From positions 1 to 64,000 of the forward strand of contig JAFKFM010000015.1 of the NCBI GenBank assembly GCA_017308135.1: DNA of 64,000 nt, written 5' to 3'. A program made the translations under genes and the position numbers. Source of the DNA: Alphaproteobacteria bacterium. GTDB lineage: Bacteria; Pseudomonadota; Alphaproteobacteria; CACIAM-22H2. Positions 7,201-14,145 of this stretch are shown one piece after another. Position 1 is the first letter of the stretch; each line of letters starts with the position of its first letter. The notes beneath the pieces are model-generated. The model ran no database searches, was not told the origin of the DNA, and saw nothing but the letters and a program-made list of their open reading frames with translations.

Positions 7201-8225
7201 CTCTTGTTCTTCAGGTCGAACACGACGGCATAGCCGTCTTCCGCCCCCGCGGCGATGCGCCAGCCGTCCGGCGACCAGGCCATCGCGCGGATCGGCTTTT
7301 GTATGTCGGCCGGTGCGCGCAGTTCGAGATCGCGGCGGCTATCCATATCGCCCAAACGCAGCGCGCCGTTTTCGAACCCGCCGCAGACGAAGCCGCTGTC
7401 GGGATGCGCCACGATGCCGGTCATTCCCGCCCCGTCGCCGAACCCGTATTCGACCGGCGGCTGGCCTTCGGGACCTTTGCCCGAGAAATCCCAGCACACG
7501 AAGCAATCGGCGGCGTCGGACAGCAGAAAGCGCGCATCGGCCGTCCAGGCGAGCGTCTTCACCTTGGTGCGATAGCCCGCCATCTGCATGTCCTGTCCGT
7601 TGGCGAGGCGCCAGACATGGATCGCGTTGTCCTGCGTCGTCGTCGCGAGGAATTTGGCATTGGGCGCGTATTTGATCGCGACGTGGCTGCCCTTCCACTC
7701 CATCTTGCGCGGCGCACTGGCGGGATTGCGCACCTGCCAGATCGAGGCCCCGCCGTAATGCGCCGCCGCTACGCGGCTGCCGTCGGGGCTGAAATCGAGC
7801 GCGGTGATCGTGCTGGGATGGGGGCCGAGCTTCTTGGGTTCCGTCCCGCCCGGCGCCCAATACCAGATTTCCTTGCCCACGCCGCAAGCGATGCCGCCGT
7901 TCTTATGCGTGGCGAGCGCGTCGATCCAGCGGCCTTGTGCCTTGCCGATTTCCGCGAGCGACCCATCGACGCCGATGCGCACCAAACGCCCGTCGTCGCC
8001 GCCCGACACGAACGACACGCCATCGGGATGCGGCGCGAAAGACAGGCTGGCGCCGTTATGCGCCTCGACCTCGCGCGTCGAATTGTCGGCGATCGTGACG
8101 AGCTTGACGAGGCCGGAGCCGAGCGCAAACGCCGCCGTTTCGCCGTCCGCCGAAAATGCCGCGCCGGAGACGTAAGCGGCGAAATCGAACTCGCGCTTCG
8201 CGGGCAGTTTGACCGTTTCGCTCAT
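7197..8225 (-). CDS. WD40-repeat protein, last gene of the Zur-box operon
   Basis: A 342-residue cytoplasmic protein made almost wholly of WD40 beta-propeller repeats, seen as repeating units such as LDFSPDGSRVAAAHYGGASIW, IKYAPNAKFLATTTQDNAIHVW and MAWSPDGWRIAAGAEDG. It has no signal peptide and no extra catalytic domain. Its ATG overlaps the stop of the COG0523 GTPase gene by four bases, so the two are translationally coupled. A scaffold or partner role for the GTPase is an inference from this coupling; no biochemical function is known to me. The stop overlaps the end of the VOC gene on the other strand. Confidence 0.9.
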   Translation of the reverse strand: MSETVKLPAKREFDFAAYVSGAAFSADGETAAFALGSGLVKLVTIADNSTREVEAHNGASLSFAPHPDGVSFVSGGDDGRLVRIGVDGSLAEIGKAQGRWIDALATHKNGGIACGVGKEIWYWAPGGTEPKKLGPHPSTITALDFSPDGSRVAAAHYGGASIWQVRNPASAPRKMEWKGSHVAIKYAPNAKFLATTTQDNAIHVWRLANGQDMQMAGYRTKVKTLAWTADARFLLSDAADCFVCWDFSGKGPEGQPPVEYGFGDGAGMTGIVAHPDSGFVCGGFENGALRLGDMDSRRDLELRAPADIQKPIRAMAWSPDGWRIAAGAEDGYAVVFDLKNKS

Positions 8226-9313
8226 GCCGCTTTGCAGGATTCGAAGCCGGATTTCAGCGCGTCGGCATCGAGCTTGCGGCCGATGAACACGAGCTTCGAT
8301 TGACGCTTCTCGCCTTTGCGCCAGTTCTGGCCCCAGGTCGAATCCGCGATCATATGCACGGCCTGGAACACGAAACGCTGTTCGGCCCCGTCGATCGACA
8401 TGACGCCCTTGGCGCGCAGGATATTCTGGCCTTGCGTCTGCAACACGCCGGAAATCCAGGTGCGGAATTTCTCCGGATCGACCGGCCCGTCGATCACCGC
8501 CGCGACGGAGAAGATGTCGTCGGCATGGCGCGGGTGTGCATGGGCATGATGGGAATGATCATGCGTGGGATCGTCGCAATGATCGTCGTGGCAGTCTTCG
8601 CCATGGTGGTGATGATGATCATGTCCGTGATGATCGTGGTCGTGATCATGGTCATGGCCATGCGCGTGATCGTGCAGGAAATGCGGATCGAGCTCCAGGA
8701 TGCGCTGAAGATCGAACGAACCCTTGTTGAGGATCAATTCGAGGGCGATCTCGCTCTTCTTCGTGCGATGCAGGCGCGCATAGGGATTGATCTCGCGGAT
8801 GCGGCGCTCGACGGCGCTCAATTCCGCCGGCGTCACCAGATCGGTCTTGTTGAGCAGGATCACGTCGGCGAAGGCGACTTGATCTTCCGCCTCGCGGCTG
8901 TCTTCCAGGCGCAGCGGGAAATGTTTGGCGTCGACCACGGTCACGACCGCGTCGAGCTTGGTCTTGGTCTTGACCTCGTCGTCGGTGAAGAAGGTCTGCG
9001 CGACCGGGGCGGGTTCCGCCAAGCCCGTCGTTTCGACGATGATGCCGTCGAATTGGCCGCTGCGCTTCATCAAGCCGCCGATCGTGCGGATCAGATCGCC
9101 GCGCACAGTGCAGCAGATGCAGCCGTTGTTCATCTCGAAGATTTCTTCGTCCGTGCCGACCACGATGTCGTTGTCGATACCGACCTCGCCGAACTCGTTG
9201 ATGATCACGGCGTATTTCTTGCCGTGGCTCTCGGTCAGGATGCGGTTCAGCAGCGTGGTCTTGCCCGCCCCCAGATAGCCGGTGAGGACGGTGACGGGAA
9301 TTTGCTCGGTCAT
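8222..9313 (-). CDS. COG0523 (CobW-like) GTPase, His-rich, likely zinc metallochaperone
   Basis: A 363-residue G3E-family P-loop GTPase. The Walker A motif GYLGAGKTTLLN lies at residues 11-22, the invariant metal-binding CxCC motif (NNGCICCTVRGDL) near residue 65, and the guanine-specificity NKTDLV near residue 155. About residues 215-270 form an extreme His/Asp-rich segment typical of zinc-handling members, followed by the CobW C-terminal domain. COG0523 proteins of the ZNG1/ZigA type deliver zinc under starvation. CobW proper works in cobalamin synthesis. The upstream Zur-type palindrome favours zinc, while the nearby cobalamin riboswitch keeps cobalt possible. Confidence 0.93.
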   Translation of the reverse strand: MTEQIPVTVLTGYLGAGKTTLLNRILTESHGKKYAVIINEFGEVGIDNDIVVGTDEEIFEMNNGCICCTVRGDLIRTIGGLMKRSGQFDGIIVETTGLAEPAPVAQTFFTDDEVKTKTKLDAVVTVVDAKHFPLRLEDSREAEDQVAFADVILLNKTDLVTPAELSAVERRIREINPYARLHRTKKSEIALELILNKGSFDLQRILELDPHFLHDHAHGHDHDHDHDHHGHDHHHHHGEDCHDDHCDDPTHDHSHHAHAHPRHADDIFSVAAVIDGPVDPEKFRTWISGVLQTQGQNILRAKGVMSIDGAEQRFVFQAVHMIADSTWGQNWRKGEKRQSKLVFIGRKLDADALKSGFESCKAA

Positions 9314-9343: not shown

Positions 9344-10255
9344 TTAGCCCGTCCGGCGCGCGGTTTCCACCCCTGTGGCAACAGGGTTATCGGCGGCGCC
9401 ATGGACATGCAGATCCGCGCATTCCAGGGCGGCGGCGGTATCGCCGGAGCTGGCGGGAACCCGCGCCCCCCGATCCTGGCCCAAAGCGGTGCGCAAAGCC
9501 GCGCACGTCACCACGACGGCAAAGCCGGGCCACAGCATCAAAGCCGGGTGATCGAACATATAAAGCCGGTATTCGAACAGCATCGCCCCCCAATCCGGGC
9601 GGCTGGAATCGGCGCCGAGGCCCAAAAAAGCCAACGCGGCATAGGCGATGACGATCCGCCCGAGCTTGGCGCCCAAATAGGCGAGCTGCGTGTCGAGCAC
9701 GGCGGGCAGAACATGGCGGAACATCAGCCGGGATTTGGTGCCGCCCAAGGCGCGCGCGGCCTGGACATAAGGCTCGGACAACGCGCGCCGCGCCAAACCG
9801 TCGGCGAGCAGCGCGTAAGGTCCCCACGCACCCAGGCCCAACGCGATGCCGGCGGTGACGGCGTCGAAACCAAGAAGCGACACGATCGCGATAGCGACGA
9901 CCAACGTGGGCATCACGCTGGCGAACTCGGCCACGCGCAGCAGCGCGCCGCGCAAAATGCCGGACGTACTCGCCGCCGCGAGTCCGACCGCGAGCCCCAG
10001 CATCACGCACATCGTCGCGACGATGCCGAGTGCGAGGAACGTGCGCCCCATCCCCGCCATCAAGCGCGCGAGCACATCGCGGCCGAGATGATCGGTGCCC
10101 AGCCAATGCGCGAGTGTCGGCGCGCCATGCCGGTTGAGCATGTCGATCGCGTCGGGTGCGTAAGGCTGCCACACGGCGCAGATCAATGCCGTGCCTGCGA
10201 GTGCGGGCAGCACCCATAGACGACGCTCGACGATGGCGGGCGCATGATGCGACAT
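9344..10255 (-). CDS. ABC transporter permease, DppC/NikC type, with unusual C-terminal tail
   Basis: A 303-residue inner-membrane permease of the dipeptide/nickel importer class. It shows the N-terminal signature HWLGTDHLGRDVLARL, about six membrane segments, and a good EAA loop (QAARALGGTKSRLMFRHVLP) that should dock an ATPase. The ATG at 10255 overlaps the stop of the upstream permease (TGATG). Relatives normally end soon after a GLRDALDPR-like motif. Here the sequence drifts (ALRTALGQDRG) and runs on for about 40 residues, including ALECADLHVHG, which resembles the first strand of an ABC ATPase. No ATPase gene follows. Confidence 0.88.
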   Translation of the reverse strand: MSHHAPAIVERRLWVLPALAGTALICAVWQPYAPDAIDMLNRHGAPTLAHWLGTDHLGRDVLARLMAGMGRTFLALGIVATMCVMLGLAVGLAAASTSGILRGALLRVAEFASVMPTLVVAIAIVSLLGFDAVTAGIALGLGAWGPYALLADGLARRALSEPYVQAARALGGTKSRLMFRHVLPAVLDTQLAYLGAKLGRIVIAYAALAFLGLGADSSRPDWGAMLFEYRLYMFDHPALMLWPGFAVVVTCAALRTALGQDRGARVPASSGDTAAALECADLHVHGAADNPVATGVETARRTG

Positions 10256-11175
10256 CAGCGCAGCCTCGGATCCAGAAGATGGCGCGCACCCGCCGCGACG
10301 AAGGCGATCGCCAGCATCCATGCCGCCGCGACGACGATATAGGCTTGCAGCACGAAGTAGTCGCGCATGGCGATGCTATCGACCAGGAACGTGCCCAGGC
10401 CCGGCAGGCCGAACACGACTTCGACGACGGCGGTCCCGCCGACGACCCAGCCCGCTTCGGCCGTCAACGCCGCACTCAAGCCGAGGCGCGCGTAGCGCCC
10501 GCCTTGCGCTTCCAGCGCCGTATCCGGATCGGCGCCCTTGGCCAGCGCCGTGCGGAAATAATCGGCGCGGCTCACTTCGGCGAGGCCCGCGCGATAGACC
10601 TGCGCCAACGGTCCCAAACCGGTGAAGGCGACGATCAGGATCGGCAGCACGTAACGCGCGGGCCCCTCGCCCAGCACATCGATCACGCGCAATTCGACCG
10701 CGAAAAACCATAGCAGCAAGCAACCGAGCCAAAAGGCCGGGATCGCTTGCGCACCCAGCGTGGCGGCATCGAGCACGCGCGCGGCCCAACCGTTCGGGCG
10801 TTTCGCGGCCCCGCGCGCGAGCGGTCCCACGGCGAGCAACGCCACGAACAAACCGCCGAAGCCGACGATTAGACTGACCGGCAAACGCTTGGCGAACTCG
10901 TCGAGGATTGGCGCGCCGGTCTTGAACGACCGCCGCCAATCGCCGGTCAGAAAATCGCCGAGCCACGCCGCGTATTGCAGCGGCAAGGCCTGGTCGAGGC
11001 CCCATTCGCGATGCAGGGCCGCGACCGTGTCGGGATCGGCGGCTTGGCCGAACGCCACGAGGCTCAATACCGCCGGATCGGCGGGCATCGCGCGCACGAC
11101 GGCGAACGCGGCGAGACTGGCGAGCCACAGCAACAGCAGGGCTCGCAATCCTTCCGCGATCGCCGCGCGCGGCAT
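10255..11175 (-). CDS. ABC transporter permease, DppB/NikB type
   Basis: A 306-residue inner-membrane permease, partner of the downstream DppC-type protein. It keeps the DppB layout: an N-terminal membrane helix, the periplasmic segment with DPDTVAALHREWGLDQ-like sequence and LGDFLTGDWRRSF, then five more helices and a terminal LLDPRLR. The EAA loop (RTALAKGADPDTALEAQGG) is degenerate in its second half compared with typical members. The start codon directly abuts the stop of the binding-protein gene, so it belongs to the same transcript. Substrate could be a peptide, metal complex or metallophore. Confidence 0.88.
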   Translation of the reverse strand: MPRAAIAEGLRALLLLWLASLAAFAVVRAMPADPAVLSLVAFGQAADPDTVAALHREWGLDQALPLQYAAWLGDFLTGDWRRSFKTGAPILDEFAKRLPVSLIVGFGGLFVALLAVGPLARGAAKRPNGWAARVLDAATLGAQAIPAFWLGCLLLWFFAVELRVIDVLGEGPARYVLPILIVAFTGLGPLAQVYRAGLAEVSRADYFRTALAKGADPDTALEAQGGRYARLGLSAALTAEAGWVVGGTAVVEVVFGLPGLGTFLVDSIAMRDYFVLQAYIVVAAAWMLAIAFVAAGARHLLDPRLR

Positions 11176-12651
11176 TTACGGGCTCGCGCGCAGATCGGCG
11201 CGCAACACGTAATAGTCGGACGGGTACGGCACGTACGACGCCGCACGTTTCGACAGGCCGACATGCCAGACCGGCGTCATCAGGTAGACGACCGGCGCCT
11301 GCGCGAAGACGAGTTGCTCGATCCCTTTGAGCGCCGCGGCGCGGGCGGGGGCCGCGTCGATCTCGCGCAAGCGGTCCAGCGCCGCATCGACTGGGGCGCT
11401 GGCGAACGACATGAAATTGGTCGCCGAGGTCGAGCGCAGATATTGCTCGAACACGAAGGCACCGTCGCCGCCAGGGGCCGCGTGCATCGCCCAAAGCGCG
11501 GCGTCGTAGCGCTTGGCCTGAAGCTGCGGCGAGATCGCTTCCGTCACCTCGATGCGCACGCGAAAACCGATCCGCTCCAAACTCGCGCGGATCACCGGGG
11601 CGATGGTCACGAGATCGGGGCGCTGCGGATAGGTCGTCAGCGTGAACTCCAGCGCGCGCCCGTCCTTCATCCGCTGACCGTTCGCCCCCGCCTTCCAGCC
11701 CGCGTCGTCGAGCAGTTTTTCCGCTTCGCGCGCGTCATGCTTGCGCGGGCTTTCCGACGCGAATGGGAACACGCGCGGGAACATGCCGGTCGCCGTTTCG
11801 CCGCCATTGGCGGCGGCGATCAGCATGGAACGATCGATCGCGAGATCGACCGCTTGGCGCACTTTCACATCGTCGAAGGGCGCGCGCTGCGTGTTCAGCA
11901 GCGCCATGTATTGATAGGCGACCGGCGTCGACTTGATCGTCAGTTCCGGCCGCCGCTTCAAGCGCGGCAGCGTTTCGGGCGCGAGGTTGAACGCGATATC
12001 GACCTCGCCGCTTTCAAGCCCGAGGGCCAGCGTCTGCGCATCGCCGATCCGGCGGATCGTGACGGCGGGCCGCGACGCCACGTCGCGATAGAACGGGTTG
12101 GGTTCGAGGCGCAGACTCTCGCCGCGCTTGAACTCGACCGCGCGGAACGGCCCGGTCATGCTCGCATTCGTGCCGTCGAATTTGTGGATCGCGAGCGGAA
12201 ACTCCGCGAGCACGCTTTCGATCGCCGCGACGGGGCGTTCGGGACGCAAGCGCAGCTCGCGCGCGTTCAGCACGTCGAGGGCGGGCGTACCGATCTGACC
12301 GCGCGCGCGCGGATTTTCCTTGGTCGCGCGGTCGAGCGACGCCTTCAACGCGGTCGCGTCCAAGAGCGAACCGTCGGCGAATTTGAGATCGGGCTTCAAA
12401 CGAATGATGAAGCTTTCGCCATCCCGCCGCACGCTTTCGGCGAGGTTCGGCACGATGCGGCCTTCGCGGTCGACGGTGAACAACGTCTCCGCCACGCCAT
12501 GCGATTGCAGCGCCCAACCGGCGACGCCTTGGGCGGGATCGAGGGAGTCGGTCAGGAAGCCCTGCCCGACGACGAGCGGGCGGGTTTGCGCGTCGGCCGG
12601 AACGGCCGTGAGAGCGAGTGCGGCGGCGGCCGCGAGAATACGGAACTGCAT
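11176..12651 (-). CDS. ABC transporter substrate-binding protein, family 5 (DppA/NikA type)
   Basis: A 491-residue periplasmic solute-binding protein of family 5, which binds peptides, nickel chelates or metallophores. The chosen start MQFRILAAAAALALTAVPADAQ gives a clean signal peptide and follows GAAGGGG. A longer in-frame start would cover the Zur-type palindrome. Family features include LDPAQGVAGWALQSHGVAETL, WxFxLK-like FIIRLKPDLKFADGS and RQAVDLAIDRSML. It is the first gene after the palindrome at 12676-12690, 24 bases upstream, which places the transporter under probable Zur repression. Zinc-metallophore import is therefore an inference from regulation, not from the protein itself. Confidence 0.9.
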   Translation of the reverse strand: MQFRILAAAAALALTAVPADAQTRPLVVGQGFLTDSLDPAQGVAGWALQSHGVAETLFTVDREGRIVPNLAESVRRDGESFIIRLKPDLKFADGSLLDATALKASLDRATKENPRARGQIGTPALDVLNARELRLRPERPVAAIESVLAEFPLAIHKFDGTNASMTGPFRAVEFKRGESLRLEPNPFYRDVASRPAVTIRRIGDAQTLALGLESGEVDIAFNLAPETLPRLKRRPELTIKSTPVAYQYMALLNTQRAPFDDVKVRQAVDLAIDRSMLIAAANGGETATGMFPRVFPFASESPRKHDAREAEKLLDDAGWKAGANGQRMKDGRALEFTLTTYPQRPDLVTIAPVIRASLERIGFRVRIEVTEAISPQLQAKRYDAALWAMHAAPGGDGAFVFEQYLRSTSATNFMSFASAPVDAALDRLREIDAAPARAAALKGIEQLVFAQAPVVYLMTPVWHVGLSKRAASYVPYPSDYYVLRADLRASP

Positions 12652-12675
12652 GTTTCGACCCCTTCGGGAGGAAAG

Positions 12676-12690
12676 TGTTATACTATAACA
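12676..12690 (-). promoter_or_regulatory. Zur-type operator palindrome
   Basis: A perfect 7-1-7 palindrome, TGTTATACTATAACA. It matches the GTTATANTATAAC core known for Zur operators in proteobacteria. It lies 25 bases before the start of the binding-protein gene and overlaps the stop codon of the upstream DUF1636 gene. The same core occurs once more in the window, before the porin-like gene at 34828-34846, which supports a real shared regulator. Confidence 0.8.
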
Positions 12691-13132
12691 AATCTTGGAC
12701 GCCAGGCTTTTCATCAAGGACCAAGGGTCCTTTCCAGCCGGGCGGCGCGATGCGGGCGAGAATTCCGGCGCGTAGCGGCTCGGGCCGTTCCTTGCGATCG
12801 AGGAATCCGTCGATGCGGTCGCGATACATCAGGAAGGCGTCGATCACGTCGCCCGCATGGATCGCGGGATCGAGATCCCCGAACAGGAAGGTGAAGCGCT
12901 TGGCGCCGCCCGCGAACGCGACCGTACAGGCGCGCGTGCATTGGCTTTGGCAATAGATGTCGCGCCGATGCACATCGCCGAGCCCGCGCTTGGCGAGTTC
13001 GGCGTCGATGGCTTGCGCGAATTTGCGCCCCGGCCGTTCTTCGAGCGGACCTTCCCAGCCCGGCGGCCGGCAGCGGTTGCAGACGTCTAATGTTGGCGAT
13101 GGCAATGTTGGTGGTGGCGAGTCTTCAGACAT
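12683..13132 (-). CDS. DUF1636 predicted metal-binding protein
   Basis: A 149-residue DUF1636 (COG5469) protein. Two cysteine groups are visible, CNRC near residue 18 and CQSQCTRAC near residue 60, in a ferredoxin-like arrangement suited to metal or cluster binding. The family core FTFLFGDLDPAIHAGDV and the ending RPEPLRAGILARI are clear. The start MSEDSPPP is chosen because longer in-frame starts would read through the riboswitch. DUF1636 genes are commonly tied to cobalamin synthesis or cobalt uptake, and this one sits 108 bases after a B12 box. Its molecular role is unknown. Its stop codon lies inside the Zur-type palindrome of the next operon. Confidence 0.85.
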   Translation of the reverse strand: MSEDSPPPTLPSPTLDVCNRCRPPGWEGPLEERPGRKFAQAIDAELAKRGLGDVHRRDIYCQSQCTRACTVAFAGGAKRFTFLFGDLDPAIHAGDVIDAFLMYRDRIDGFLDRKERPEPLRAGILARIAPPGWKGPLVLDEKPGVQDLL

Positions 13133-13136
13133 TTCG

Positions 13137-13161
13137 GGCGGAACCCCTGTTTCGGTTCGCC
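13137..13161 (-). promoter_or_regulatory. Hairpin over the DUF1636 ribosome binding site
   Basis: On the minus strand GGCGAACC and GGTTCCGCC form an 8-bp stem with one bulged base, ending five bases before the start codon. The likely Shine-Dalgarno AGGGG is in the loop and stem. This is a plausible expression platform by which the upstream cobalamin aptamer could block translation. Confidence 0.55.
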
Positions 13162-13240
13162 ACAGACGAGAGGACGGATTGCGATTTCCGCCTTGTCGCA
13201 CCGGGACACCCCGCCCGATACGCTCGCACGTGACCGACGT

Positions 13241-13393
13241 CGATGGCAGGTCTCCTGGCTCGCGGGTCGTCGCCGAACCGTCGCCTTCCCGGCGTTCCGC
13301 GCCAGTGGCAATTTGACGATCCGGCTCGCCGCTCACAGTTGCGGGGGCAGCCGCGGATGAAGGCCCTTACGAGCCCGCGCCGCGTTCCCTCTA
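13241..13393 (-). ncRNA. Cobalamin riboswitch, 3' part of the aptamer
   Basis: The minus strand carries the hallmarks of the cobalamin (AdoCbl) riboswitch in order: AGGGAACGCGG, GCTGCCCCCGCAACTGTGA, GCCACTGG, CGGGAAGGCG, and the B12 box AGCCAGGAGACCTGCC at 13245-13260. The closing P1 strand CCATCG follows at 13241-13246. What is missing here is the 5' P1/P2 portion, which lies 271 bases further upstream at 13665-13690, beyond an inserted inverted-repeat element. The riboswitch controls the DUF1636 gene and possibly genes further downstream. Confidence 0.92.
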
Positions 13394-13664
13394 AGAGCAT
13401 GACCAGGCGGGATTGAATCGTCTGCGTTGGGTTTCCGGCGCGTGCGAACCGCGAGGCGCGGTCCGAAGCCGATAGTGGTTCTATCGGCGAGGACCGCAAC
13501 AAAGCGGGCGCCCGCCGGAACCCAACCCGAAGGGCCGCGTACTTTTGCGTCGCGGGGGTGTCGAAGGGCTCGCGCGTAGCACCACTACGCGACTTCGCCC
13601 TCCTCCTACCCGCGACGCAAAATTCCTGCGGCGCAGACGGCTCACTCCCACCTGGTCATGCTCT
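13394..13664. mobile_element. MITE-like inverted-repeat element inserted in the riboswitch
   Basis: A 271-bp element bounded by inverted repeats: AGAGCATGACCAGG at 13394-13407 and its exact complement at 13651-13664. Pairing extends inward to about 33 bp with 29 matches. Inside are two nested inverted repeats. The first pairs 13426-13440 with 13513-13526 and holds a strong hairpin at 13458-13497. The second pairs 13543-13556 perfectly with 13609-13622 and holds a hairpin at 13573-13591. There is no open reading frame with a transposase. No clear target duplication was found. It interrupts the cobalamin aptamer between its complementary GTTCCC and GGGAAC strands. A structured-RNA extension of the riboswitch is the alternative reading. 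Confidence 0.75.
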
Positions 13665-13690
13665 CATCCCTGGCGGGAACCATCGCGCGC
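13665..13690 (-). ncRNA. Cobalamin riboswitch, detached 5' part of the aptamer
   Basis: On the minus strand this reads CGATGG (P1), GTTCCC, GCCAGGGATG, which is how alphaproteobacterial cobalamin aptamers usually begin just before their AAAAGGGAA segment. CGATGG at 13680-13685 is complementary to CCATCG right after the B12 box at 13241-13246, and GTTCCC is complementary to GGGAAC at 13384-13389. Both helices can therefore still form if the inserted element folds out as a stem. Confidence 0.75.
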
Positions 13691-13734
13691 ACGGTGCTTG
13701 TCCGGGTCGGGCTTGTCAAGGTACCCAAGGCGCC

Positions 13735-14145
13735 ATGTTTCTGCCCCGGCCCGCCGCTATCGCGATCGTCCCGCACCAAGGCAAGGTGCTGCTGGTCCGC
13801 CGCGCCAATCCGCCCGATCCGGGACGCTGGGGATTTCCGGGCGGCAAGATCGAACCGGGCGAGACCTATATGGCCGCGGCAATCCGCGAACTGGCGGAGG
13901 AAACCGCCGTGCGCGCCGAAGCCTTGCGCGCGATCGATGCGCTCGACGTGATCGTGCGCGACGAAACCGGCGATCTCAAATTCCACTACGTGCTGGTCGC
14001 GGTGCTGTGCCGCTTTATCGACGGCACGCCGGTCGCCGGCGACGACGTGCACGATTCCGGCTGGTTCGATCCGGCCCAAATCGCCGCCACCCCGCAAATA
14101 TTCCTGGACCGGGTGGCGGGTTTGGCCCAGCGGGCGCTGGCTTGA
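13735..14145 (+). CDS. NUDIX hydrolase
   Basis: A 136-residue NUDIX pyrophosphohydrolase, a class that cleaves nucleoside diphosphate-X compounds. The NUDIX box runs GGKIEPGETYMAAAIRELAE followed by ETAV, with the catalytic Glu residues in place and Ala instead of the usual Gly near its end. The start MFLPRPAAIAIVPHQGK is chosen because longer in-frame starts read through the inverted-repeat element and have no family similarity. The N-terminal layout (VLLVRRANPPDPGRWGFPGG) is close to ADP-ribose or dihydroneopterin/MutT-type enzymes, but the exact substrate cannot be set. Confidence 0.9.
   Translation: MFLPRPAAIAIVPHQGKVLLVRRANPPDPGRWGFPGGKIEPGETYMAAAIRELAEETAVRAEALRAIDALDVIVRDETGDLKFHYVLVAVLCRFIDGTPVAGDDVHDSGWFDPAQIAATPQIFLDRVAGLAQRALA

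Follow-up and report, generated by a model that had tools for sequence, protein, structure and literature searches.

Small mobile elements inserted in structured RNAs are already known. RPE elements occur within the tmRNA and M1 RNA of Rickettsia (Ogata 2002, cited in PMC2229807), and in the trp leader of pneumococcus a BOX element separates two T-box riboswitches, with domains that are thought to fold independently (PMC3049150). RUP of Streptococcus pneumoniae is an IS630-type MITE linked to IS630-Spn1 (PMC2229807), and the CIR elements of Caulobacter and Brucella are described as repeats of about 110 bp with two arms, a linker and GANTC in the loop (Chen and Shapiro 2003, PMC2229807). The open-access literature searched yielded no previous case of a cobalamin aptamer that harbors a mobile element.

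The locus analyzed here is a cobalamin riboswitch of a Tagaea-like bacterium, located on the minus strand at 13685-13228 of the window (the whole 64,000-nt stretch of DNA under study) and split by a 271-nt element. It resembles the RPE cases in that a small mobile palindromic element lies within a structured functional RNA, and differs from them in the element family and in the host RNA, which is here a ligand-binding aptamer. Like the BOX element, it would be a structured repeat co-transcribed with a riboswitch, but the BOX element lies between two complete riboswitches, whereas the window element lies within one aptamer. The element shares with IS630-type MITEs such as RUP a non-autonomous nature, TA-type ends in its clearest copies and terminal inverted repeats in common with an IS630 element, but it is longer than RUP-type MITEs (about 271 bp) and has a conserved branched core independent of its hypervariable arms. 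Like CIR, it is an alphaproteobacterial intergenic repeat with TA ends and a conserved RNA-like fold. CIR identity was nevertheless ruled out by its size (about 271 bp), its architecture with 5'-3' pairing, and GANTC sites without clear enrichment (24 observed versus 17.6 expected from shuffled sequences; 10 of 21 copies have a site at one particular arm column), although the TA ends and a GATTC within the 3' arm had suggested it.

The interrupted riboswitch and its operon

The riboswitch precedes a cobalt/B12-related operon, that is, it occupies the leader of cobalamin-/cobalt-related genes as expected for RF00174. All operon genes are intact, and their features and those of the leader are as follows.

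8222..9313, minus strand: CobW-family GTPase
9344..11175, minus strand: two BPD_transp_1 permeases (10255-11175 and 9344-10321)
11176..12672, minus strand: SBP_bac_5 solute-binding protein
12683..13132, minus strand: DUF1636 gene (PF07845), first gene of the operon
13200..13219, minus strand: P13-like hairpin ATCGGG-CGGGGTGT-CCCGGT, kept in the orthologues, by inspection
13228..13390, minus strand: aptamer core 3' of the insert (AGGGAACGCGG ... B12 box ... P1 3' strand), from RF00174
13241..13247, minus strand: P1 3' strand GCCATCG, from the fold
13247..13261, minus strand: B12 box GAGCCAGGAGACCTG, from the RF00174 match and the fold
13341..13352, minus strand: GGCTGCCCCCGC hairpin, L5-type, intact by inspection
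13390-13380, minus strand: AGGGAACGCGG segment, the first core stretch beyond the insert
13394..13664, minus strand: MITE-like inserted element, 271 nt, from the empty orthologous site in three genomes and the dispersed copies
13394..13426, minus strand: element 3' arm, from arm complementarity; taken by Rfam as the P1/P2 5' strand
13426..13526 (limits approximate), minus strand: element core domain B with conserved GGCGGGCGCCCGC, from the fold, the copy alignment and covariance model R1
13534..13632 (limits approximate), minus strand: element core domain A, a long internal hairpin, from the fold and the copy alignment
13632..13664, minus strand: element 5' arm (terminal inverted repeat), from arm complementarity and the copy alignment
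13667..13678, minus strand: facultative hairpin TCCC-GCCA-GGGA, from the orthologues and the fold (pair probabilities 0.87-0.995)
13679..13685, minus strand: P1 5' strand CGATGGT, identical in the G001 and G009 orthologues, pairing with 13241-13247
13691..13719, minus strand: candidate promoter TTGACA-N17-CACCGT, by inspection; TTGACA and its surroundings are kept in the orthologues
13735..14145, plus strand: divergent NUDIX gene, the upstream neighbor and an anchor of the orthologous locus

An Rfam covariance-model search matched RF00174 at 13423-13228 on the minus strand; the score, 104.9 bits, lies above the gathering threshold of 31.5. The earlier note had looked to such a search for support of the segment 13665-13690 as the aptamer 5' strand; the search recovered the riboswitch but did not use that segment, because its alignment starts inside the insert and places the insert 3' arm where the P1/P2 5' strand belongs, at the cost of several non-standard pairs. 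A better 5' strand lies upstream of the insert at 13685-13667 (CGATGGT followed by TCCCGCCAGGGA), is identical at 24 of 24 positions to two orthologues, and is contiguous in both with the remainder of the aptamer. The Rfam alignment thus illustrates one way in which standard annotation misreads such RNAs. The P1/P2 strands, the B12 box and the kissing-loop parts are all intact in the window copy, bearing out the suggestion that every aptamer hallmark is present on this strand. We take the GGCTGCCCCCGC hairpin to be the L5-type kissing-loop partner; by inspection, the loop of the P13-like hairpin can pair with its CCCCC. The window aptamer thus has the complete set of core segments of an AdoCbl-type RF00174 member with a facultative hairpin, together with P1, the B12 box, the small hairpin and the elements of the kissing loop, but departs from the standard in that a 271-nt mobile element separates the small hairpin from the AGGGAAC segment.

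The insert, AGAGC...GCTCT, spans 13664-13394, exactly the 271 bases by which the 5' P1/P2 strand had been proposed to be split off. Its inverted-repeat boundaries, also proposed earlier, are arms of 33 nt each that are 88% complementary, and the insert folded alone reaches -188 kcal/mol, a z-score of -13.2 relative to 200 shuffled sequences. In the earlier proposal the insert projected as a helix from a loop between paired GTTCCC and GGGAAC. It is indeed predicted to form a separate self-folding domain, but that pairing was wrong: both the orthologues and the fold show TCCC forming a small hairpin with GGGA from CCAGGGA, and GGGAAC belongs to the core. The insert accordingly occupies the linker that joins the facultative hairpin to the AGGGAAC segment. 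This linker to GGGAA is short and varies among riboswitches of the same class in this bacterial family. No Rfam family matched the insert above its gathering score; miRNA-family matches inside the element fell far under theirs and reflect only the long hairpin.

The candidate promoter immediately precedes the aptamer, which would place the insert within the transcript. A consensus promoter scan called no promoters, this candidate included. The longest ORF of the DUF1636 gene (12683-13336, 217 aa) begins at a GTG within the aptamer; the true start is likely the ATG at 13132.

The orthologous site in relatives

Flanked by the NUDIX gene and the DUF1636 gene, the orthologous locus was recovered from three congeners, G001, G009 (Tagaea sp. 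CACIAM 22H2) and G010. The aptamer is uninterrupted in all three, with conserved flanks and neighbors, and not all relatives share the insert, as an ancestral extension would have had it in the earlier note. The junction without the insert reads ...GGGATTGAAAGGGAAC..., or, spelled across the orthologues, ...GATGGTTCCCGCCAGGGATTGAA(A/T)GGGAACGCGG.... Since both a nearer (G009) and a more distant relative (G001), as judged by sequence divergence, are without the insert, it was gained on the branch leading to the window genome. By this comparison the 271 nt are an insertion and no ancestral extension of the aptamer.

Relative to G001, the aptamer core has 8 differences in 162 positions, 7 of which lie in one peripheral hairpin and are compensatory (GGGCUC/GGGCCU versus GAGUUC/GGACUU), leaving only 1 difference outside it. 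No differences from G001 are present in the P1/P2 strand or in the 42 nt upstream of P1, against a divergence of about 10% in the adjoining coding DNA. Early in the DUF1636 gene, the window carries an in-frame 15-nt stretch (about 13085-13115) that is absent from all three orthologues and is a near-duplication of CCAACATT.

The element family and its likely mobilizer

Sequence searches identified 5 copies of the element in the window genome, about 9 in G001, 1 in G009 and 5, some of them partial, in the more distant G017. With a covariance model of the element 3' half, the element was detected in 18 of 289 sampled Alphaproteobacteria (loci L094-L111), often with at least 10 copies per genome and frequently at contig ends. 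In the 5 of these 18 genomes inspected in full, the architecture is the same, with complementary arms and mostly TAGAG-like ends; in the MAG PL25a_bin.107 this architecture is preserved although the sequence of the copies is very different. A structured MITE family without an Rfam entry is thereby revealed. No match was found in the plasmid collection, and pattern matches in Azonexus (L066) and Phycisphaerae (L065) proved to be chance, the element being absent there.

The element is dispersed, non-coding and multi-copy, its presence is polymorphic at orthologous sites, and its copies have complementary but hypervariable arms around a conserved branched core, which includes the near-palindrome GGCGGGCGCCCGC (window 13504-13516). 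The clearest copies end TA|GAGC...GCTC|TA. Several copies, L012, L016, L021 and L024 among them, have TA at either end; the flanks are imperfect in some others and in the window copy, which ends GA|GAGC ... GCTC|TTA without a clean TA duplication. No Rfam RNA was found in about 38 other loci with element copies, so the position inside a riboswitch is an exception rather than a habit of the element.

G017, which belongs to the same family as the window genome and also carries the element, contains an IS630-family IS (L117) with two overlapping transposase frames and DDE_3. Its termini are TAGAGCGTGATGA...TCATCACGCTCTA, and it resembles the element only over about the outermost 12 bases. Because an IS630-family IS with the same termini is present in a related genome, the element is best read as a non-autonomous IS630-type MITE, presumably moved by an IS630 transposase. 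No DDE_3, DDE_Tnp_1 or DUF4096 transposase was detected in the window genome, which, like the unclean TA of the window copy, speaks against this reading. An IS5-type mobilizer was rejected, as DDE_Tnp_1 and DUF4096 are missing from the window genome and the DUF4096-transposase ISs of other genomes do not have the element ends.

In a consensus fold of 21 aligned copies, 91.6% of cells are paired and two-sided changes occur at 52 of 105 consensus pairs, a level matched in 0 of 500 shuffles. Identity between the window copy and L011 is 99% in domain A and 96% in domain B and falls to 68% in the arms; among Tagaea copies arm and core similarity are nearly uncorrelated. The orthologous copies L002 (window genome, G000) and L023 (G001) agree at 98% in the arms and less, at 91%, in domain A. 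These patterns suggest that arms and core evolve separately through exchange or conversion between copies. Because transposition needs matching terminal repeats and copies seem to exchange domains, the covariation of the element is no proof of RNA function. Domain A across the L002/L023 pair resembles other subfamilies, as gene conversion between copies would give.

Predicted fold and fate of the riboswitch

Partition-function folding of 13692-13228 with the insert in place predicts a modular structure, in which the insert forms a separate domain and both P1 and the hairpin are kept. P1 (CGATGGT/GCCATCG) closes across the insert with a pairing probability of 0.995 (0.99 for 6 of its 7 pairs), in line with the earlier expectation that the flanks could still pair, and the facultative hairpin has a probability of 0.96. 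The expected number of cross-pairs between insert and remainder is 0.00015 for the real insert versus a mean of 39 for 60 dinucleotide-shuffled inserts, of which 20% retained the hairpin (probability above 0.9) and 47% P1. Substituting other natural element copies for the insert in silico gives results like those for the real one. The locus offers a natural test of riboswitch-aptamer modularity, in which an aptamer-sized mobile element is seemingly accommodated by folding only with itself.

The most likely reading, which we consider probable, is a tolerated insertion: a 271-bp non-autonomous IS630-type MITE would have transposed into the leader of the DUF1636-ABC transporter-CobW operon, with its landing site in the short stretch that links the facultative hairpin to the AGGGAAC core segment. 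Through its near-perfect self-complementarity the element would fold into a separate branched helix next to the hairpin, P1 would close over this helix, and the ligand core and the kissing loop could form as before. The riboswitch would then keep sensing cobalamin, with the element as a passenger; the sensor is apparently unbroken because the element pairs only with itself, at a spot that tolerates extra length.

It is unlikely, but a serious rival, that the insertion damaged the switch, with an RNase III cut in the element stem or co-transcriptional misfolding freeing the operon of cobalamin control and leaving the aptamer as a recent relic. Cleavage has to be weighed because the nearly perfect 33-bp stem, accompanied by long internal hairpins, makes a plausible RNase III target; NEMIS transcripts of Neisseria are reported as RNase III substrates (PMC2229807), the insert is carried by only one genome, and thermodynamic folding leaves out co-transcriptional kinetics and cleavage. 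Against damage speak the preserved P1/P2, B12 box and upstream region beside coding DNA that differs by about 10%, together with the retention of all aptamer helices in the predicted fold, although the lack of decay would be uninformative if the insertion were recent. On its age, neither a transposase nor a near-identical donor copy was found in the assembly of the window genome and the terminal TA is blurred, which hints that the insertion is not brand new but does not date it.

Ribosomal RNAs with intervening sequences function as expanded or two-piece RNAs. That the interrupted aptamer likewise works in expanded or two-piece form, its transcript carrying or being cleaved at a transposon-derived branched helix of 271 nt that is now part of leader behavior, seems to us doubtful, less likely than a damaged switch. 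Less probable again is that the insert is put to use, either by trimming by RNase III or another nuclease into a two-piece riboswitch held by P1 or by modulating leader stability or timing; a long double-stranded stem adjoining P1 and the precedent of NEMIS processing (PMC2229807) would fit, but the window copy bears no sign of selection, its core resembles other family copies, and a single genome has the insertion. An ancestral aptamer extension with its own function in cobalamin sensing, which the strong covariation of the element helices might suggest, is very improbable, being contradicted by the empty sites in the orthologues and by copies elsewhere that lie outside riboswitches. We regard as equally improbable an artefact, whether a misassembly, to which multi-copy repeats are prone, or chance inverted repeats: both flanks come from one orthologous locus inside a 139-kb contig, the genome is 98% complete in 20 contigs, and the fold z-score is -13.

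A third cobalamin riboswitch of the window genome (L010, G000:C6:121768-122014) gives a 247-nt match, longer than its counterparts in relatives, and differs in the organization of its 5' part.
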